In this document: positions 45,601 to 56,026 of the stretch, piece by piece | How positions within the stretch are numbered: position 1 is the first letter of the stretch | Layout: the number at the start of each line of letters is the position of its first letter | Origin: an archaeon | Lineage (GTDB): Archaea; Thermoproteota; Nitrososphaeria; Nitrososphaerales; Nitrosopumilaceae | Length of the DNA stretch: 64,000 nucleotides | Assembly (NCBI GenBank): GCA_024276695.1 | Contig: JAJRWR010000017.1 | Span: 1 to 64,000, forward strand | Direction: 5' to 3' | Notes under the pieces: model-generated | Databases searched by the model: none | The model's input: only the letters and a program-made list of their open reading frames with translations | What the model was told of the DNA's origin: nothing | Translations under genes and position numbers: made by a program

Positions 45601-47652
45601 TTGGCTTTTTATTCTGGATTGTTACATGATATTGGAAAAATAAATCCAGTTTATCAGGAGATATTTTATGAAACAAAAAACAGAAAACAAGTAGAAGAAA
45701 AAATACTAGAAAAATACGTCAAAGAACATTCAAGATTTTCTGCTTGGACTGTAGATAAGCTATTGGAAAAAAGAGGTCTTGATCATAGTACAATTGACAA
45801 AATAACTGTATTAATTTATGGACATCATTCCACAATTAGAGGAAACCTTGGAAGTGTAGAAGGGAATAAATTTACAGCGACCAAAGATACAATTTCCCAA
45901 GTATTACCTGAATTTAGATCACAAGCATCAAATTGTTCTAAATTCTCAGAACTTAATTGGGATTCATGTTTGGAGGAATTTCAATACCCTGTAGATTTTC
46001 AGGTCAACCTTTCAGAGTTCAAAAATTCACTTGATGATTATTTGGAGATATCCTGTGCATTTTCATGCCTACTTCAGGCAGATAGAGGCAGTTTTGACAA
46101 GTGGTATATACCTAATTTTGATTTGAAATTACAGACCCAGTCTCTAATTTCAGACAGTCCTCTTGGAAAAATCCGTACAGATTTTCAAAAACAGGTAATG
46201 GATAACTTTGATGAAGCCCAGGGAATTTCAATAATTAATGCACCTACAGGAATTGGAAAGACCAAGGTATTTTTGGATATCATTAATCAATATTCAGAAA
46301 ACAAAGATGTTGAGCGAATATTTTACTTTTCCCCATTACTTGCATTAACTGAAGACTTTGAATCAAAGATAGCATCCGTAATATCAAAAAACCAGCAAGA
46401 AGATATTTTGATTTACAACCATCTGTATTCCGGTTCCTTACAAGATAAGAGAGAAGAAGGAGAAACTAGAATCTCTAATCAATGGATATTTGAAAATGAA
46501 TCATTTAACAAAAAATTTGTCATAACTACTACTCAGAGATTACTCATGACAATTTACTCTAACAAATCTCGAGACAAAATGAAGATGGCATCATTTAGAA
46601 ACTCAGTATTAATTATTGATGAAGTTCAAACAATTCCAAAATCAATACTATCCAATCTGAAAGATATTTTCAAAAAAATGAATCAATACATGAGAACCAA
46701 ATTCATTTTAGTTAGTGCGACAATTCCTCATGAGATAAGTGACATTAAACGAGTTGAATTATCTTTAGAAACTTTGAAAGATTATTTATCTCAGACAAAA
46801 AAGCAAATCTCACTTCAACCCCTAGATGTAAAGACCATTCCAATTAAAAAAACACTAGTAATGGCAAACACCAGAAAAAAGGCAGTACAACTATATTCTG
46901 AAATTAAGCAAGAATATCAAGACAAAAAAATAATCTACATCTCTACTGGAATTAGAAAAAAAGACAGAATACGTATAATCCAAGACCTGCCTAAAATATA
47001 TGAGTATGTCCTTGTTGCAACTCAGGTAGTCGAAGCAGGTGTAGACATTGATTTCTCACATGTGTTTAGAGAGCAGACACCACTTGATAATCTCATTCAA
47101 GTGATGGGCAGATTAAACAGAGAGGGGAAAAACCCTGAGGCAAAATTAGTTATTTATCCTACAGACGGTAATCCAATTCCTTATAGTCCATTAGAATTTC
47201 AAGTGACTCAGGAAAAAATTTTAGGCATCACTAATTCTATGCAAATATATGATATTTTAGATCAATATTATTCTGAGATTTCTGAACGAAATACGAGTAA
47301 TTCTGAGGCTGCAGAGAAACTAGAACGACTAATTGCAAGAATGGATTTTGATGGGGTATGGGAATTTGTCAGAAATAAGGTATTTCAGGAAGATAGTCGT
47401 GATACCGTGTTTATTCCAGATATTGAGTACTGGGATGAGGTAAAAAATGGATTACTATGTGGAGTGACTCGTGAAAGTTTCAAAGAATTTGGAAATTTGA
47501 CAGCATCACTTCCAATTTCACTAGATAAAGTTGGGGCAGAATTTTTTGATGAAGAATTAATAGAGAAAAATATTCTGTTACCAAAAAAAGAACACCTCGA
47601 AATAATTTATGATAAAGATATGGGATTAGACAAATGGATAACAAAAGAATAA
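45601..47652 (+). CDS. cas3: CRISPR helicase-nuclease Cas3, 5' end apparently broken
   Basis: 683 residues from a TTG. HD nuclease residues: GLLHDIGKINPVYQ, KEHSRFSAW, IYGHHS. Helicase: Walker A NAPTGIGKTK, Walker B IIDEVQ, VSATIP, and VLVATQVVEAGVDIDFSH with QVMGRLNREG. The HD domain's usual first His is absent from this frame. It can be read upstream as WQEHTSELEES in another frame (45522-45572), followed by TAA and then LTKFSQHIL. The true gene probably began near ATG 45494 and has suffered a stop and frameshifts, or the sequence has errors. Overlaps cas6 by 19 bases. Confidence 0.88.
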   Translation: MAFYSGLLHDIGKINPVYQEIFYETKNRKQVEEKILEKYVKEHSRFSAWTVDKLLEKRGLDHSTIDKITVLIYGHHSTIRGNLGSVEGNKFTATKDTISQVLPEFRSQASNCSKFSELNWDSCLEEFQYPVDFQVNLSEFKNSLDDYLEISCAFSCLLQADRGSFDKWYIPNFDLKLQTQSLISDSPLGKIRTDFQKQVMDNFDEAQGISIINAPTGIGKTKVFLDIINQYSENKDVERIFYFSPLLALTEDFESKIASVISKNQQEDILIYNHLYSGSLQDKREEGETRISNQWIFENESFNKKFVITTTQRLLMTIYSNKSRDKMKMASFRNSVLIIDEVQTIPKSILSNLKDIFKKMNQYMRTKFILVSATIPHEISDIKRVELSLETLKDYLSQTKKQISLQPLDVKTIPIKKTLVMANTRKKAVQLYSEIKQEYQDKKIIYISTGIRKKDRIRIIQDLPKIYEYVLVATQVVEAGVDIDFSHVFREQTPLDNLIQVMGRLNREGKNPEAKLVIYPTDGNPIPYSPLEFQVTQEKILGITNSMQIYDILDQYYSEISERNTSNSEAAEKLERLIARMDFDGVWEFVRNKVFQEDSRDTVFIPDIEYWDEVKNGLLCGVTRESFKEFGNLTASLPISLDKVGAEFFDEELIEKNILLPKKEHLEIIYDKDMGLDKWITKE

Positions 47653-48287
47653 AAATATGCTATGCAGTACTGGATTTTGATTCAGATTACAAGGTAACAC
47701 CTGTCAAATTAAGAGGTTTTTTAGCACATCTTTTTGCAAATATTTCTGAATTTCACCATCATTCAGATAGTGCATATCACTATCCACTGATACAGTACAA
47801 AAGAATTGAAAAGAAACTAGCAGTAGTTGGAATAAAAGAATTTGCAGATATTATTTTTCAGAACATGTCTAGATTAGATCACATAACTACTGAAACAGAA
47901 AAGATTCCATTAAACAATATCGAGATTAAAAGTAGTTCATTTGAAGTAGAACAAGTTCCACAAAAATACAAATTCATATCACCTTGGCTTGCATTAAATG
48001 AAAAAAATTATGCAAAGTTTAAGGAATTGACAAATAATGAAAAGAGACCATTCTTAGAAAAAATACTTGTTGGAAATATCTTATCTTTATTGAAAGGATT
48101 GGACATATTTGTGGATCATAAAATTATTGTATCCATTACAAAGTTTAACAGTGTTAGAATCACTGCTCATCAAAACAGTTTTGCAGGAATTTATGCAGAG
48201 TTTGAATGCAATACATTACTACCTGAATATCTTGGTCTTGGTAAAAGTGTCACAAAAGGATTGGGAGTAATAAAGAAAATATCATGA
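47634..48287 (+). CDS. cas6: CRISPR RNA endoribonuclease Cas6 (Cas6b-like)
   Basis: 217 residues. The segments KLRGFLAHLFA, FHHHSDSAYHYPLIQYKRI, FISPWLALNEKNYAKF and the glycine-rich C-terminal loop LGLGKSVTKGLGVIKK match the Cas6b-type RAMP family. It is expected to cut the repeat just before AUUGAAAC, leaving an 8-base 5' handle. The histidine cluster at residues ~41-50 may hold catalytic residues. The first ATG overlaps cas3 by 19 bases and the stop overlaps cas1 by four. Confidence 0.85.
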   Translation: MDNKRIKICYAVLDFDSDYKVTPVKLRGFLAHLFANISEFHHHSDSAYHYPLIQYKRIEKKLAVVGIKEFADIIFQNMSRLDHITTETEKIPLNNIEIKSSSFEVEQVPQKYKFISPWLALNEKNYAKFKELTNNEKRPFLEKILVGNILSLLKGLDIFVDHKIIVSITKFNSVRITAHQNSFAGIYAEFECNTLLPEYLGLGKSVTKGLGVIKKIS

Positions 48288-49240
48288 TAATCGAGGTAAG
48301 CACTCATGGCAGCACCATAAAAAGAGATCATGATTCTTTCGTAATTCAGTCAAAGGATGAAAAAACTGAGATTCCAGCAGAAAAAGTTGATGCGGTAATA
48401 ATTACAGCAAACTCCTTGATCAGTACACATGCAGTACGATTATGCGTTGAAAAGCAGATACAGATGGTAATTTCAACATGGTCAGGAAAACCTGTTGCCA
48501 GATTATGGTCAAGTACTCCTGGAAAATCAACACAGCTAAGACGTAATCAGTATTTGAATCAAGACACCGTTATGGGATTTGAAATATCTGTAATGATCTT
48601 AGAGAAAAAACTACTAGAACAAAGAACATTTTTAAATAATTTAAAAAATAATCGAAATTCACCTCCGACAAAAATAGAGCGAGTAATTCCCACCATTACT
48701 AATTCTATTAAGAAAGTCCAAGATCTCAAGTATTCAAATGACTACAAATCCACTCTCTTGGGATTGGAAGGTGCATGTGCTGCAGGCTATTTCCAGGCAA
48801 TTTCATCGATTTTACCACAAAAATGGTCTACTGATAAACGAAGTCAGCACCCAGCACATGACAGTTTTAATGCCGTTTTAAACTATTTGTATGGAATGGC
48901 ATATGCCGATGTTGAGAAAATAATCATACTTTCAGGCCTTGATCCAAATGCGGGATTTTACCATGCTGATTCTTATGGAAAACCTACATTATCTTATGAT
49001 GTGATTGAGCTAGTACGACCAGTTGTAGATAGAATTGCAGTGACGTCATTTACCAAAAAAAGGGTTCATGATGATTGGTTTAAAATACAAGATAATGGTA
49101 TTGATGGCGTCTTTCTCTCAAAAACTGCAAGACAGTTTTTCATCTCATTATATGTTGAAAATGGACGTAAAATTATAGAGTCAAGATCATGGGATTTTTG
49201 CAAAAACATTATAAAAAAACTGCAAGGTAATGCCACATGA
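48284..49240 (+). CDS. cas1: CRISPR adaptation integrase Cas1
   Basis: 318 residues. Catalytic Glu in GLEGACAAGYFQAI, His in GFYHADSYGKPTLSYDVIEL, and the acidic residue in the same helix (VIELVRPVVDR) are all present, so the enzyme looks active. Beta-rich N-terminal domain, helical C-terminal domain. Coupled by ATGA overlaps to cas6 and cas2. Confidence 0.96.
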   Translation: MIIEVSTHGSTIKRDHDSFVIQSKDEKTEIPAEKVDAVIITANSLISTHAVRLCVEKQIQMVISTWSGKPVARLWSSTPGKSTQLRRNQYLNQDTVMGFEISVMILEKKLLEQRTFLNNLKNNRNSPPTKIERVIPTITNSIKKVQDLKYSNDYKSTLLGLEGACAAGYFQAISSILPQKWSTDKRSQHPAHDSFNAVLNYLYGMAYADVEKIIILSGLDPNAGFYHADSYGKPTLSYDVIELVRPVVDRIAVTSFTKKRVHDDWFKIQDNGIDGVFLSKTARQFFISLYVENGRKIIESRSWDFCKNIIKKLQGNAT

Positions 49241-49530
49241 AAAATATGTATTATGCAGTTTATGATATCAGTGATGATTCTACTCGCAGTTCAGTAATTC
49301 ACATTCTTAAAAATCAGGGATTTTCAAGGATTCAAAAAAGTGTTTTTTGTGGAAGTTTATCCGGGCAAAACAAAAAGGATTTGATTGAATCAATAAAGAT
49401 GATAGTAGATGAGAATGACTCTTTTTATTTAATATTGACTTGTAATCAATGCTTTGGCAAGATCAAAATAATCGGTAAAGGGTTTGATGAGGAATACGTT
49501 TCTGACAAGAAACCTGCAGTTGTATTATGA
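49237..49530 (+). CDS. cas2: CRISPR adaptation protein Cas2
   Basis: 97 residues, ferredoxin-like: YYAVYDISDDSTRSSVIHIL contains the conserved Asp, then FSRIQKSVFCGSL. It bridges two Cas1 dimers during spacer integration. ATGA overlaps on both sides. Confidence 0.95.
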   Translation: MKNMYYAVYDISDDSTRSSVIHILKNQGFSRIQKSVFCGSLSGQNKKDLIESIKMIVDENDSFYLILTCNQCFGKIKIIGKGFDEEYVSDKKPAVVL

Positions 49531-50120
49531 CTTTTCCACTTACCGTTACAGATGTAGTAGAATACGCATTTTGTCCAAAATTTACGTATTTTATCAATGT
49601 TCTAGGGTTAGGACAGTTTGAGCAAAAAAGAGGATCTGTTTCTGCTGGACGCAAACTACACAACAAACATGAAAGAAGTAATTTGGATTATGTTCCACAA
49701 GGATTCAAAGGGAAGAAAATTATTGCATGCAAATTCTTTTCAGAAAAATATGAATTGTCAGGCAAGATTGATGAGGCAATAGACATGGAAAACGAAATAA
49801 TACTAATTGAACGAAAGTACAGTGACAATCACAAAGTATATCCTGCACTCAGAATACAGTTGGGATTACTTTCTGTACTAATTGAAGAAAACATGCACAA
49901 GCCTGTAAGAAAAGCAATTGTAATTTTTAATAAAACACAAAGAAAAGCAATTCATGTCATTATCGATGATTCAATAAGAAATGAATCGCTAGAAATGTTA
50001 AATGATGTAAAAAAAATAATTAAAAGTGAAATTATGCCTGAATCTGAATTTGACAATAGATGTCTAAATTGTTGTTTTAGAAGAATTTGTCCTACGGGTT
50101 CTTTAAATAGTGACGAATAA
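49527..50120 (+). CDS. cas4: CRISPR adaptation nuclease Cas4
   Basis: 197 residues, RecB-like exonuclease with iron-sulfur cluster. Cluster Cys in EYAFCPKFTYF and CLNCCFRRICPTGS; nuclease residues in LSGKIDEAI, ILIERKYS and the later Gln (RIQLGLL). Expected to trim prespacers and select PAM. Last cas gene; the array starts 80 bases downstream. Confidence 0.94.
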   Translation: MTFPLTVTDVVEYAFCPKFTYFINVLGLGQFEQKRGSVSAGRKLHNKHERSNLDYVPQGFKGKKIIACKFFSEKYELSGKIDEAIDMENEIILIERKYSDNHKVYPALRIQLGLLSVLIEENMHKPVRKAIVIFNKTQRKAIHVIIDDSIRNESLEMLNDVKKIIKSEIMPESEFDNRCLNCCFRRICPTGSLNSDE

Positions 50121-50200
50121 TTTGTTGAAACCAAGAAATATGTTGATTAGATATGGTGAAAATTAATAAAATAGGCACAGATTCGGACATAATAGTTGCT
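50121..50200 (+). promoter_or_regulatory. CRISPR leader
   Basis: 80 bases between cas4 and the first repeat. AT-rich, with no ORF. The degenerate repeat is at the far right, so the leader is on this side and transcription is left to right. It includes TTGAAACCAAG-like sequence close to the cas4 stop. Short for a leader; cas-operon read-through is likely. Confidence 0.6.
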
Positions 50201-50816
50201 GTCAAAATGACAAATCCATCATAACAAGGATTGAAACACTATGAAGAAGACATACACAACATACTAGAACACCCGTCAAAATGACAAATCCATCATAACA
50301 AGGATTGAAACCGGAATTAATGAGGATAGGAAAAGTGGCTCCCTAGGTCAAAATGACAAATCCATCATAACAAGGATTGAAACTGTACCCTTGGACCAAT
50401 AAGTGCAGTTGTGAAGGAAGGTCAAAATGACAAATCCATCATAACAAGGATTGAAACCTCCATGTATTGCATACAGTCCATACCCTGATCTGAGTCAAAA
50501 TGACAAATCCATCATAACAAGGATTGAAACTTAAATGTTTAGTTAGCAGGACGTATCAAGGAAAGTCAAAATGACAAATCCATCATAACAAGGATTGAAA
50601 CGGGGTTTTGCTGGCGGTAACTCACCTAGAGATATTGTCAAAATGACAAATCCATCATAACAAGGATTGAAACCAAACGTAGTAACCATGTCTATTCATT
50701 TTTCTCCTGGGTCAAAATGACAAATCCATCATAACAAGGATTGAAACTCGTTGTATGAGTGTGCCAGTTCTTCCATGATATCAAGTCAAAATGACAAATC
50801 CATCATAACAAGGATT
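50201..50816 (+). CRISPR. CRISPR array, eight full repeats plus one degenerate terminal repeat
   Basis: 37-base repeats, starting GTCAAAATGACAAAT and ending GGATTGAAAC, at 50201, 50275, 50347, 50421, 50494, 50565, 50637 and 50711, all identical. A ninth at 50785 matches for 32 bases (to GGATT) and then diverges. Eight spacers of 37, 35, 37, 36, 34, 35, 37 and 37 bases. Within the repeat AATCC and GGATT can form a 5-bp hairpin, and the 3' ATTGAAAC is the typical crRNA handle. No spacer visibly matches other parts of the window. Confidence 0.98.
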
Positions 50817-51396
50817 AAAGTCGAGACTTGATAAAGTTAGCAAAAATCAATTCGGTAATACTACTGTATACATATCCCAGTTGTTTTTTGTGTAGCATAT
50901 AGAATCAAAGATGTATCATGTAATGTAGATGTTCAACTTATTATTTGTCAATTCATTTGTTAGAAGAAAACAAATGATCATTTAGTGAATATCAAGTGTA
51001 AAATAACTCATATTCTCTACACTAGTTTAACAGATATCTTTAGTATAGTAAATGCGGGCATTACAAAAATGGTCTATCAGGCATAACTGATTTTCTGTTA
51101 AACATTGTGTCAGGCATTACAGAATTACGTGTAGAAAATGTAGAGATTTGTAGTGCCTACATTTTCCAATATTTGTGAATTTTTTACATATATGTATTTT
51201 GTATATTGTTAACAAAATATGGAGATTGTTGTGCTTAACAAGTAAAATTGTTAATGTATGGATGTAGAAAATGGTCATCTGACACTTGACCTGACACAAT
51301 CTGTCAGGTGTTAGGTACAAAAGTAACCGAAATACTTATTTTAAAAAATAATTAAAAGATAGAAATGAGTTAACGATGATTCGTTAACATGTGGGT
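50817..51396. other. Noncoding region downstream of the array
   Basis: About 580 bases with no supported gene. AT-rich, with inverted repeats: ATTGTGTCAGG (51104-51114) against CCTGACACAAT (51290-51300); a hairpin GAAAATGTAG/CTACATTTTC (51134-51143, 51157-51166); and ACCTGACA/TGTCAGGT (51289-51296, 51302-51309). No transposase. It could be a mobile-element remnant, a structured RNA or an island boundary. Confidence 0.55.
51104..51300. repeat. 11-bp inverted-repeat-bounded segment
   Basis: A perfect 11-bp terminal-type inverted repeat encloses 197 bases, including an internal 10-bp stem with a 13-base loop. The layout resembles a MITE-like element, but no flanking target duplication is evident, and a structured RNA is equally possible. 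Confidence 0.4.
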
Positions 51397-51651
51397 TTAA
51401 CGATTAGAAAGGCTGTTTGATTTTACAAATGTCCAAATCTTTTTGGTCATTTCACTTGGTGCAATTGGTTTCTTACCAAATACTTGTTCTACAGTTTCAG
51501 AACGTCCTGCAAAACTGATTGCATATCCACCAAATGCTGATTTTTTAGCTTTTGATTTAGTTGCTTTCTTTTTTGATGCTGTTTTTCTTTTTGTTGTAGC
51601 CTTTTTTGTTGTAGCTTTTCTTTTGGTTGTGGTTTTCTTTTTTACTGCCAA
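51397..51651 (-). CDS. Lysine-rich SWIB-like chromatin protein
   Basis: 84 residues. About 38 Lys/Thr/Ala-rich N-terminal residues resembling a histone tail, then a short domain ending IAPSEMTKKIWTFVKSNSLSNR, which resembles part of a SWIB/MDM2 domain. Probably DNA-associated. Small proteins of this design are common in ammonia-oxidising archaea. Confidence 0.7.
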   Translation of the reverse strand: MAVKKKTTTKRKATTKKATTKRKTASKKKATKSKAKKSAFGGYAISFAGRSETVEQVFGKKPIAPSEMTKKIWTFVKSNSLSNR

Positions 51652-51687: not shown

Positions 51688-52344
51688 TTACACTTTTAGA
51701 TAACTCAACACAAGATGATTTTTGAGCCTCTTGATTGATTTAAGTCGTAGTTTAGGAGATTCTGAAATCTTATCGAATCCTTTGCCTTGAACTAGAGAAA
51801 TTGCATTATTTCCTCCAATTATAAAAGGTGAAATGGTAATTATTAATTCATCAAAAAGATTTTGTTTTATGAATTCCCAATTTACAGTCCCACCACCTTC
51901 AATTAGAATTGTTTTAATTTTTTTCTCTGAAAGTTTTTTTAATAATAATTTTATATTTACAGATTTTTTACCTGTAGTAATTATTTCTACAGAGAAATTA
52001 TTTAGTTTTTGAAGATTAGATTTTGTAATTTGTTTAGATACTGCAATAATTGTAGGAACTTTATTGGATGTTTGTAAAATTTTTGATTTTATAGATATTT
52101 CACCTTTAGAATCAAGTATTATCCTAACAGGATTTTTTCCTCTAGTATGACGTACAGTCAATGAAGGATTGTCTTTCATTACAGTATTTTTTCCAATTAG
52201 TATTCCATCAACTTTAGTTCTTAGTTTATGGAGTCTAACAAAATCTTCAGTTGAAGATAGTTTAGAATTACCGATTCTAGTAGCAATTTTTCCATCAATA
52301 GATATTGCTGCACTTAAAATGACATATGGTTTAGATTTTGCCAT
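51688..52344 (-). CDS. arfC: 2,5-diamino-6-ribosylamino-pyrimidinone 5'-phosphate reductase
   Basis: 218 residues, RibD C-terminal-type reductase without the N-terminal deaminase. LSAAISIDGKIATRIGNSKL, VDGILIGKNTVMKDNPSLTVR and ILIEGGGTVNWEFI are typical. It reduces the ribosyl side chain in archaeal riboflavin synthesis. Overlaps the amidohydrolase start by 14 bases. Confidence 0.9.
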   Translation of the reverse strand: MAKSKPYVILSAAISIDGKIATRIGNSKLSSTEDFVRLHKLRTKVDGILIGKNTVMKDNPSLTVRHTRGKNPVRIILDSKGEISIKSKILQTSNKVPTIIAVSKQITKSNLQKLNNFSVEIITTGKKSVNIKLLLKKLSEKKIKTILIEGGGTVNWEFIKQNLFDELIITISPFIIGGNNAISLVQGKGFDKISESPKLRLKSIKRLKNHLVLSYLKV

Positions 52345-53521
52345 GTATTATTTTCCCTCCAATCATTACAGCTTTAATTGTAGATTCAGATGCTCTATGG
52401 ACAATAGATGCATGTGGATTGTGCATCGGTTCTAAATCTAATGCATGTTTATCTAAAAAAATACAATCAGCTAAGTTTCCAGATTTGATTATTCCAATAT
52501 TTTTATTTAAAATTTTTCCACCATTTACAGTAGCCATCTTAAGAATCTCTTTAGGTTCAATTCTTTTTTTGTGTATCCCCATAGTCACTTTCCAAATAAA
52601 ATCCATCTCTCTAAACATATCTGGTGAGTTAATCATCACATTATCTGTGCCTAATCCTATTGTACAGTTGGATTTTTGCATTAATTCAATGTCAGGAATT
52701 CCTTCCGCAAGTGATGAATTAGCTCTTGGACAAATTACAATACCCCTAGTTTTTTTAGATACTAAATGAAGATCAGATTTTGACGCATACGTCATATGAA
52801 CTAAAAAATCAGGTTTTAGCGTTAAAGCCCTAATAGTTTCTGATTTTCCAGTAATTTTTTTTGATTTGGTAATACTTTGTTTAGTTTCGGATGAATGGAT
52901 TGCTCTAATCTTTGATATTTTAGAATAGTAATTCAACACAGAATTACTATTTTCATTTGCACCACTGATACCTATGCCGTCACATTTTTTGAGTAATGAT
53001 AAGAATTCAGAGGATTTTGTGCTAGGAAACGATAAATTTTTTTTGATTTCTTTAGTATCTTGATAAAATTCCATACGCCCTAAAATTATGGAACGTATAG
53101 GAATATCAGATAGAACCTTTTTTAGTAAAATCACTCCCTCTAATCCACCTTCTCTAAAATCAACAAAAGTTGTAATCCCTTTTCTAATCATAGAATAACA
53201 TGTATTTTTCATAAAATTTCCCAAATGCTCATTTGATGTGTTTTTAAGAATTTTTGATTTAGCGCCAAATACAGGATGGATCTTTTGATCAACTGTTTTG
53301 TCTAAAGAAATGTCTTTTCCAATCGAGTCTCCGATATGCGTATGTGCATTAATAAATCCAGGAATCATCAATAGTCCTTCACAGTCTACAGATTCTTCTT
53401 TTACATTTGATTTAATTTTTGATTGAATCTTTTTAAATTTATCATTTTTAATTTGTATATCAGTATTTGGAATAAAATCCAAATCTTGTCCAGATAATAT
53501 GCTGATGTTTTTAATTAACAT
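52331..53521 (-). CDS. Amidohydrolase of the riboflavin operon, putative aminohydrolase
   Basis: 396 residues, ATZ/TRZ-type (guanine/SAH/cytosine deaminase-like) fold. Metal ligands and catalytic residues visible: INAHTHIGDS, RAIHSSET, HMTYAS, CPRANSSLAEG and GLGTDNVMINSPDMF. It overlaps arfA by seven bases and arfC by 14, so it is made with them. Candidate for the unassigned riboflavin deaminase in archaea, or for the formamide hydrolase step; not a proven function. Confidence 0.85.
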   Translation of the reverse strand: MLIKNISILSGQDLDFIPNTDIQIKNDKFKKIQSKIKSNVKEESVDCEGLLMIPGFINAHTHIGDSIGKDISLDKTVDQKIHPVFGAKSKILKNTSNEHLGNFMKNTCYSMIRKGITTFVDFREGGLEGVILLKKVLSDIPIRSIILGRMEFYQDTKEIKKNLSFPSTKSSEFLSLLKKCDGIGISGANENSNSVLNYYSKISKIRAIHSSETKQSITKSKKITGKSETIRALTLKPDFLVHMTYASKSDLHLVSKKTRGIVICPRANSSLAEGIPDIELMQKSNCTIGLGTDNVMINSPDMFREMDFIWKVTMGIHKKRIEPKEILKMATVNGGKILNKNIGIIKSGNLADCIFLDKHALDLEPMHNPHASIVHRASESTIKAVMIGGKIIHGKI

Positions 53522-54267
53522 GATAATTCATAAACTTCAGGTTTTTCTTTGCCTGAATCTCGAATTTTCCTTATAGTATCAAGGGATTTTGTGGCTAATT
53601 TTACTGCCTCTCTACCTGTATTTGCATTACCTATTCCACAATTCAAAGAAATTTTATCGTTATTTTTTACCATATTGATAAAATCTTGTACAGATTTTTT
53701 TGCTTCATCATTTGATACTACCATAAAATTATCACCTCCCATAAAAAATGTGAGAGAATTTTTTTCTAAAAAGAATTTAGACATTTTTGAATATAACTCA
53801 AAGATTACTGATGAAATTTCATAGGGGGAATCAGTTTTCCTTCTGGAAGTAAGGTCATCTACATCTAAGTGCATTATAGAAACTTTAGAATTAGATTTAC
53901 CATTAATGAAACCAAAAATATTATGTTCTGTGTTTAAAATAATTTTATTTTTCTTTCCTTCATATGCTTTCAAGTTTGCATCAAATGGAGTATTTCCAAT
54001 ACCAATAGATATTGTTAATCTAATGTCAAATAATTTTTCAAGTGTTTCTTGGATTTGAATATGATCTTCCAAGTCTAAACCATTTGAAACCACAAAAAAT
54101 TCATCAGATCTATTAAGAAAAACTATACAATTCTTTTCAGAAAATAATTTTTGTACTTCTTTGTAGAGTGAAGCTTGAAGCATTTGGAGTTCATGTTCTC
54201 TATCGCTTCCTAAAGTCAAGGTCCAAGGACCATATTCTGTAATTTTTAAGATACTTAGTTGAATCAT
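53515..54267 (-). CDS. arfA: GTP cyclohydrolase III
   Basis: 250 residues, archaeal GTP cyclohydrolase IIa (ArfA) type, GGDEF-like fold with two related halves (LTISIGIGNTPFDANLKA, FMGGDNFMVVSNDE, SLNCGIGNANTGREAVKLA). Converts GTP to the formylamino-pyrimidine nucleotide that starts archaeal riboflavin synthesis. Overlaps ribH by four bases. Confidence 0.92.
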   Translation of the reverse strand: MIQLSILKITEYGPWTLTLGSDREHELQMLQASLYKEVQKLFSEKNCIVFLNRSDEFFVVSNGLDLEDHIQIQETLEKLFDIRLTISIGIGNTPFDANLKAYEGKKNKIILNTEHNIFGFINGKSNSKVSIMHLDVDDLTSRRKTDSPYEISSVIFELYSKMSKFFLEKNSLTFFMGGDNFMVVSNDEAKKSVQDFINMVKNNDKISLNCGIGNANTGREAVKLATKSLDTIRKIRDSGKEKPEVYELSC

Positions 54268-54680
54268 TTTTGAATCCTTTTTAATTCATCAGATATTTTT
54301 ACAACAGCTTCTATAGCGCGTTCTGCGACTGGTCTAATCCTAGCATAAGCATGTCTTTCTTGCATTCCAGGACCAGAAATTCCTAAAGAAACAGGTTTTT
54401 GATATTTTAATGATAAATCAGTCAGAGCTTTTGCTGCTGCATGAGATATCACCTCGTCATGTTTGGTTTGACCTTTAATGATAGCACCCAAGGTGACTAC
54501 AGCGTCAATGTCTTTTTTGTTCAATAATGAATTTACAATGATAGGCATGTCATAAGCTCCAGGAACCATGGAAATGTGAGAAATTTTTAATTTCATAAAA
54601 TCTGCTTTTTCTTTGGCTATGGCAAGCATCCTAGATGTCACTTCCTCATTAAATTCCGAAACCACTATTGCAATATTCAA
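54264..54680 (-). CDS. ribH: 6,7-dimethyl-8-ribityllumazine synthase
   Basis: 138 residues: IAIVVSEFNEEVTSRML, VPGAYDMP, AVVTLGAIIKGQTKHDEVIS (catalytic His in TKHDEV). Condenses the pyrimidine and dihydroxybutanone phosphate. Two bases after the ribB stop. Confidence 0.95.
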   Translation of the reverse strand: MNIAIVVSEFNEEVTSRMLAIAKEKADFMKLKISHISMVPGAYDMPIIVNSLLNKKDIDAVVTLGAIIKGQTKHDEVISHAAAKALTDLSLKYQKPVSLGISGPGMQERHAYARIRPVAERAIEAVVKISDELKRIQK

Positions 54681-54682
54681 AA

Positions 54683-55348
54683 CTACTTCACCTTGGCGTA
54701 TTCTAAAAGCTCTTTTCCATCAATTAATGGAATTCCATTTTGCTTTGCAAATTTTTCAGCCTTTTCTACAGATAATGCAGAATAAGTTTCAGCATCCATC
54801 ATTTCACAAATTGTAGTTACAGGAGTTAAACCTGCAATCTGTGCTAAATAAACAGACATTTCTGTATGTCCCTGACGTGCAGCTAACAAACCTTTAGATG
54901 CAATCAATAATGGAATATGTCCAGGGGTTTTAAAAGATGATGCAAACTTTTTCTGTTTGTTTTCAACATTGTAGATTTTTGCCATCTCATTAATTGTTAG
55001 GGATCTATCTTTATCAGTAATTCCAGTATATGTTTGATAATGATTAATAGATAATGAAAAGGTAGGATAATCACCATAAGGTGCCAAGCCCATAATCATT
55101 TCTTTATTTGAGATAGAAGATTCTGAAAGAATTTCATGCATATACTGTAGATCCAAAGATTTTGCAAAATTGTTATCAATTGCAATACATAGTAATCCAC
55201 CAGCATATTGACGCATTCTTGCAACATGTTCAGGTGTAACGAATTCTGCTGCAACAACCATATCAATTTCATTTTCTCTTCCAACAGAATCAAATAACAG
55301 AACAAATTCTCCACGTTTCAAAGATTGTAATGCAGATTCAAGAGACAT
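54683..55348 (-). CDS. ribB: 3,4-dihydroxy-2-butanone 4-phosphate synthase
   Basis: 221 residues from the ATG at 55348 (MSLESALQSLKRGEFVLLFD); a longer in-frame form from 55405 adds residues not typical of the family. Acidic DSVGRENEIDMV loop, RMRQYAGGLLCIA and RQGHTEMSVYLAQIAGL are present. Makes the four-carbon riboflavin precursor from ribulose 5-phosphate. Part of the rib operon. Confidence 0.93.
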   Translation of the reverse strand: MSLESALQSLKRGEFVLLFDSVGRENEIDMVVAAEFVTPEHVARMRQYAGGLLCIAIDNNFAKSLDLQYMHEILSESSISNKEMIMGLAPYGDYPTFSLSINHYQTYTGITDKDRSLTINEMAKIYNVENKQKKFASSFKTPGHIPLLIASKGLLAARQGHTEMSVYLAQIAGLTPVTTICEMMDAETYSALSVEKAEKFAKQNGIPLIDGKELLEYAKVK

Positions 55349-55426
55349 ATGAGAAAAGCTCGTTAATCTAATTATAAAGTTTACTAAAAAATTGGTAATT
55401 ACCACTAAATTTGTAGATAATTGGCT

Positions 55427-56026
55427 TTATTTTAGAATGTATTTTCCAAGAATGTCAGTTTCAATATTAACTTTATCGCCTACTTTTTTGGTATGAAAAT
55501 TTGTCACTTTGATAGTATGAGGAATTAATGATACTGATGCAAGAGAATTTTCGATATCAACTACAGTTAAGCTAATTCCATCTATTGCAATAGAACCTTT
55601 TTTCACAACAAATTTTGATAGTTTTTTGGGAACTTCAAACCAAACCTGAACTTCTTTTGGTTTTTTTAGGATTTTTTTAATGATTCCCACTCCATCTACA
55701 TGTCCTAAAACAAAATGACCTTCTAATCGATCCCCTGCTTTTAAACTACGTTCAATATTTACAATTCCTCCAACTTTCAAATTTCCAAGATCTGTTTTTT
55801 TTGTGGTTTCTTCGATCATTTCAAAGATACAATTAGATTTTGAAAGTTTTGTTGCTGTCAAACAAACTCCGTTTAGAGCAACACTTTGTCCAATTTTTAA
55901 TCCCTTTGCATGTTTTCCTAAATTTATTGACATTTCAATTGCGCTTCTATTTTTGGTGTTTTTAGAAATTTTTTCTACTTTGCCAACTCCTTCAACTATT
56001 CCAGTAAACATTATCAATTCTATCAT
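55427..56026 (-). CDS. ribE: Riboflavin synthase, bacterial lumazine-binding type
   Basis: 199 residues, with the natural start at the internal ATG (MFTGIVEGVG, 56011). Two lumazine-binding barrels: MFTGIVEGVGKV...VALNGVCLTA and HFVLGHVDGVG...SIAIDGISLTV. This is the bacterial RibE fold and not the archaeal RibC. First gene of the rib operon. Confidence 0.94.
   Translation of the reverse strand: MIELIMFTGIVEGVGKVEKISKNTKNRSAIEMSINLGKHAKGLKIGQSVALNGVCLTATKLSKSNCIFEMIEETTKKTDLGNLKVGGIVNIERSLKAGDRLEGHFVLGHVDGVGIIKKILKKPKEVQVWFEVPKKLSKFVVKKGSIAIDGISLTVVDIENSLASVSLIPHTIKVTNFHTKKVGDKVNIETDILGKYILK

Follow-up and report, generated by a model that had tools for sequence, protein, structure and literature searches.

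A candidate amidohydrolase-superfamily deaminase for archaeal riboflavin and F420 biosynthesis, encoded between arfA and arfC

The riboflavin operon and its conservation

Riboflavin and F420 synthesis is essential in many archaea. The locus considered here raises the question which step of this pathway could be assigned to an amidohydrolase, AHS, whose gene lies between arfA and arfC. The window, that is, the whole stretch of 64,000 nucleotides that was analysed, contains an operon of six genes on one strand, ribE-ribB-ribH-arfA-AHS-arfC. All are on the minus strand. The gene ribE (55427-56026; TIGR00187, PF00677) encodes a bacterial-type riboflavin synthase alpha chain, ribB (54683-55405; TIGR00506, PF00926) DHBP synthase, and ribH (54264-54680; TIGR00114) lumazine synthase. 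They are followed by arfA (53515-54267) for GTP cyclohydrolase III (PF05165, 172 bits), which matches the GTP cyclohydrolase III structure 2qv6, by AHS (52331-53521), and by arfC (51688-52344) for pyrimidine nucleotide reductase (TIGR01508, 208.7 bits, above 186). The ArfC of the window corresponds to the C-terminal half of RibD only, aligning to model positions 135-336, and has no deaminase domain. AHS is an intact open reading frame of 396 amino acids that shares 7 nt with arfA and 14 nt with arfC. A previous sequence-only reading had described a deaminase-type amidohydrolase with HxH, HSSE and GTD motifs that overlaps both neighbours; all these features were recovered, together with a match to Amidohydro_1 of Pfam (124.7 bits).

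The riboflavin synthase gene ribE is of the bacterial type and not of the archaeal RibC type, and the same was observed in families f39, f40 and f42. Downstream of arfC there is a gene (51397-51651) for a small lysine-rich protein of 84 amino acids; Pfam gives no match for it, and similar proteins are found in the same place in some relatives (loci L020 and L022). The region 45601-50821 contains Type I CRISPR-Cas genes (cas3 with an HD part, a gene for a 217-aa protein, cas1, cas2, cas4) and then a CRISPR array of nine repeats (50194-50821).

The gene order is conserved in ammonia-oxidising archaea, in line with a check that the same reading had suggested. All 23 of the 23 Nitrosopumilaceae loci examined have ribB-ribH-arfA-AHS-arfC. 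The complete string ribE-ribB-ribH-arfA-AHS-arfC was found at 13 loci from families f39, f40 and f42, which share an order with Nitrosopumilaceae; the exceptions are L277, where arfC is situated about 1 kb further on, and L276, where it is split. Since arfA-AHS-arfC is retained in every Nitrosopumilaceae locus examined and in three other families, the arrangement is not due to chance. At six loci of family f19, ribB, ribH, arfA and AHS are consecutive.

In other lineages AHS has additional neighbours. AHS-arfC-cofG-cofH occurs in two lineages, and in a third arfC-AHS is accompanied by convergent cofH and cofG. FO synthase consumes the pyrimidine released after the deaminase and phosphatase steps (PMC8498797), and thus the rib and the cofG/cofH neighbourhoods of AHS indicate the same part of the pathway. 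A creatininase gene belongs to the arfC run in three lineages (loci L231, ribH-arfA-AHS-arfC-creatininase; L273, arfA-AHS-arfC-creatininase-cofG-cofH; and L271), and is divergent from arfA in two genomes of family f10.

Family, fold and active site

AHS scores 331.1 bits against NF005552/PRK07213, an archaeal family labelled 'chlorohydrolase', above the curated cut-off of 294, and is far under the cut-offs of the SAH, guanine and other deaminase models. Profile searches produced no creatininase-family match, so that AHS falls outside ArfB as defined by NF033501. They likewise produced no zinc deaminase domain of the PF00383 type, Pfam matching the amidohydrolase family only, and thus AHS is not a deaminase of the RibD type.

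A Methanocaldococcus genome, reached via its ArfA, contains one strong NF005552 gene (560 bits). Its neighbours are a gene for an MscS-type channel, a gene for a further protein and the gene for the small subunit of DNA polymerase II, which we take to be MJ0700 to MJ0702 of M. jannaschii. By synteny, the NF005552 gene would then be MJ0699, which places MJ0699 in the AHS family. According to Table 6 of PMC8305020, MJ0699 and its Haloferax homologue HVO_2483 were predicted by Rodionova et al. (2017) to fill one of three archaeal riboflavin gaps. PMC8305020 names HVO_1235 as the candidate for ArfB and gives the phosphatase gap separately, and so the gap left for MJ0699 and HVO_2483 is the deaminase. 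Thus, going by PMC8305020, the deaminase assignment is not new but dates from a comparative-genomics prediction of 2017. Our literature search found no biochemical test of MJ0699 or of the archaeal riboflavin deaminase step.

The motifs of AHS are HxH (H60/H62), HSSE (H209-E212) and GTDN (positions 291-294). In an alignment of 83 family members, Methanocaldococcus included, H60, H62, D65, K88, E124, H209, E212, H242, N268, D293 and N294 are invariant. The AlphaFold2 model of AHS has a pLDDT of 94.4, and its nearest solved structures are adenosine and SAH deaminases (Z about 43), followed by guanine deaminase and by Vcz, a deaminase specific for isocytosine (Z about 41). HxH, HxxE, H and D are placed on a TIM barrel, as in mononuclear-type amidohydrolase deaminases. 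The predicted active site belongs to the deaminase type. Taken alone, however, the fold match fits SAH, guanine and triazine hydrolases as well, and this counts against the deaminase assignment.

The iterated profile search initially took in SAH-deaminase-like paralogues, which were then split off by motifs and by a tree. The AHS family and the paralogues of the same genomes form separate clades with 100/100 support and a branch of 1.76. Six residues, D65, K88, E124, R266, N294 and R376, are conserved in the AHS family but not in the paralogues.

The proposed reaction

Very probably, AHS is an amidohydrolase-superfamily deaminase with a mononuclear metal site, and in the archaeal riboflavin/F420 pathway it takes the place of the deaminase half of bacterial RibD. 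We infer the following order of steps. GTP would be opened by ArfA, formate would be removed by the creatininase-family ArfB, and the ribosyl chain would be reduced by ArfC. AHS would then hydrolyse the 2-amino group of 2,5-diamino-6-ribitylamino-4(3H)-pyrimidinone 5'-phosphate, which has an isocytosine-type ring, yielding 5-amino-6-ribitylamino-2,4-pyrimidinedione 5'-phosphate and ammonia. As judged from the alignment, H60, H62, H209 and D293 would be the metal ligands, and E212/H242 would form the proton shuttle. The family-specific residues D65, E124 and N294 may recognise the ring; for the ribityl phosphate, K88, R266 and R376 may do so.

A variant of this scheme retains a riboflavin-pathway deaminase but has it act on the ribosyl compound before ArfC, as in the bacterial order, or on a dephosphorylated compound. 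The position in the operon is silent on the order of the steps, and no thaumarchaeal enzyme assay was found in the literature. We consider this variant unlikely. The accessible text of PMC13028884, where the archaeal deaminase is not named, reports reduction before deamination in Archaea, and the conserved K88, R266 and R376 would suit a phosphorylated substrate.

Co-occurrence with GTP cyclohydrolase III

In 200 genomes of the class, GTP cyclohydrolase III and AHS are both present in 152 and both absent in 45, leaving three discordant cases (197/200 concordant; Fisher p 4e-41, shared ancestry being ignored). One of these has GTP cyclohydrolase III only and is 66% complete. The other two have AHS only, starting within 400 bases of the contig end, and arfA may be off the contig. 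In the phylum sample, a family match was found in 56 of 57 genomes with GTP cyclohydrolase III, where outside Nitrosopumilaceae 26 matches were checked for motifs and the rest were accepted by hit score and length. Apart from the incomplete genome, the AHS family is present in these samples wherever ArfA is present, with the exception of genome G074. Among the genomes lacking both proteins, 20 were checked and none had a match to the reductase half of RibD/ArfC, and thus gain or loss affects the entire pathway.

Several observations count against the deaminase assignment. G074 contains arfA and arfC (loci L219 and L301), and a profile search near both genes found no diverged member of the AHS family. 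In G019 and G109 (loci L201 and L200, respectively) AHS-arfC-cofG-cofH is present and no GTP cyclohydrolase III was found. Finally, the Methanocaldococcus gene is situated away from arfA.

Two genomes that look nearly complete, G299 and G337, lack GTP cyclohydrolase III, AHS and ArfC, although they share a genus with genomes that have it; this suggests that riboflavin synthesis was lost. Some Nitrosopumilaceae (G068, G243, G290, G308, G315, G340) have an additional GTP cyclohydrolase III gene, separate from the first.

The distribution also bears on the possibility that AHS is a deaminase for the salvage of purines or nucleosides, with guanine, SAH/MTA or 5'-deoxyadenosine as its substrate, and has nothing but the operon in common with its neighbours. 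The nearest solved structures, being SAH/adenosine and guanine deaminases, would agree with such a role. However, AHS tracks GTP cyclohydrolase III almost perfectly, its clade stands apart from the SAH-deaminase-like paralogues, and the paralogues lack its six conserved residues. A salvage role is therefore quite improbable.

Deamination or formamide hydrolysis

The sequence-only reading had left two reactions for AHS, deamination and formamide hydrolysis. The former is upheld as a functional prediction by genomic context, co-occurrence, elimination and the type of the active site, whereas the latter is contradicted by the co-existence of AHS with ArfB or a creatininase. A bona fide ArfB (NF033501 above the cut-off) occurs together with an AHS-family protein in Methanocaldococcus, Methanobrevibacter, a Hadarchaeum and a Hodarchaeaceae genome. 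The Hadarchaeum and Hodarchaeaceae proteins score 248 and 272 bits, below the NF005552 cut-off, and have the family motifs and fall outside the paralogue clade. Moreover, where arfA, AHS, arfC and creatininase, with or without cofG and cofH, form one run, as in some Thermoproteota, deamination and the phosphatase reaction are the only steps left without an assigned gene.

In all 15 ArfC-bearing genomes checked, ArfC consists of the reductase part of RibD only (model positions about 130-340), and one of them has a separate weak match to the deaminase domain (23 bits). The sole PF00383 protein (cytidine-deaminase fold) of the source genome resembles ComEB/dCMP deaminase. Besides the AHS family, no candidate was found that agrees with the genomic context, the distribution and the chemistry at once.

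ArfB had been reported as not seen here, and its absence from the genome, along with that of a RibD deaminase, had been proposed as a check. That ArfB is not seen is true of the window, but the genome does contain one candidate ArfB on another contig. It is the only creatininase-family (PF02633) gene of the source genome (L004, contig C15), and there is exactly one such gene in each of the 23 Nitrosopumilaceae. The L004 protein scores 41 bits against the ArfB model, with the cut-off at 180, and in the creatininase tree the Nitrosopumilaceae proteins form their own clade, not joined to canonical ArfB. It is plausible that this protein is the ArfB of Nitrosopumilaceae. In seven of the seven Nitrosopumilaceae checked, its gene (L004/L253; about 29.6-31.2 kb on contig C15) comes immediately after, or overlaps, a gene whose product has formyltransferase and ACT domains; a link through formate to the ArfB reaction is possible.

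That AHS itself replaces ArfB as the formamide hydrolase of ammonia-oxidising archaea is very improbable, since, although the sole Nitrosopumilaceae creatininase gene lies outside the operon and scores poorly with the ArfB model, one such gene is kept in every genome, the AHS family co-exists elsewhere with bona fide ArfB or an operonic creatininase, and the predicted active site (HxxE, H, D) is that of a deaminase.

Implications for creatinine use

PF02633/COG1402 was found in all sponge Thaumarchaeota analysed in PMC7848895 and COG0402 in every genome except one, and both were interpreted there as creatinine degradation; PMC11812461 prints 'creatinase (arfB)'. The reading as creatinine nitrogen use comes from several papers on sponge symbionts. 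Apart from AHS, the source genome has two PF01979 proteins, which by their sequences resemble an adenine deaminase and a dihydropyrimidinase, and thus the COG0402 member should be AHS. Gene content suggests that the 'cytosine deaminase' (COG0402) and the 'creatininase' (COG1402) that nearly all ammonia-oxidising archaea have are probably the riboflavin/F420 deaminase and the ArfB formamidase, and so would be no evidence of creatinine catabolism there. This explanation is simpler than creatinine use.

If the function of AHS is confirmed, the gene evidence for ammonia-oxidising archaea living on sponge creatinine would be removed, the misleading label 'chlorohydrolase' or 'cytosine deaminase' could be replaced across Archaea, and the phosphatase would be the last gap in the archaeal riboflavin pathway. 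The compact operon makes the pathway easy to reconstitute.

Comparison with known systems

The invariant residues are common to AHS and to the NF005552 members of the MJ0699/HVO_2483 family. Identity to the methanogen members is about 35-40%. In ammonia oxidisers, overlaps with the adjacent genes anchor AHS in the rib operon, whereas the Methanocaldococcus gene stands apart from arfA.

With guanine deaminase and Vcz, AHS shares the fold and the metal and proton-shuttle motifs. Since the proposed substrate has an isocytosine-type ring, the chemistry would also be the same, conversion of a 2-amino-4-oxopyrimidine to the 2,4-dioxo form, if the proposed function is right. However, identity across the aligned fold is only 16-19%, AHS has extra family-specific charged residues, and it scores far below the curated cut-off for guanine deaminase.

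The RibD/Rib2 deaminase of bacteria and fungi would perform the equivalent step with a different fold, that of cytidine deaminase. The formamidases ArfB (MJ0116) and BrbF act in the same pathway but belong to a different family, the creatininases, and co-exist with AHS.
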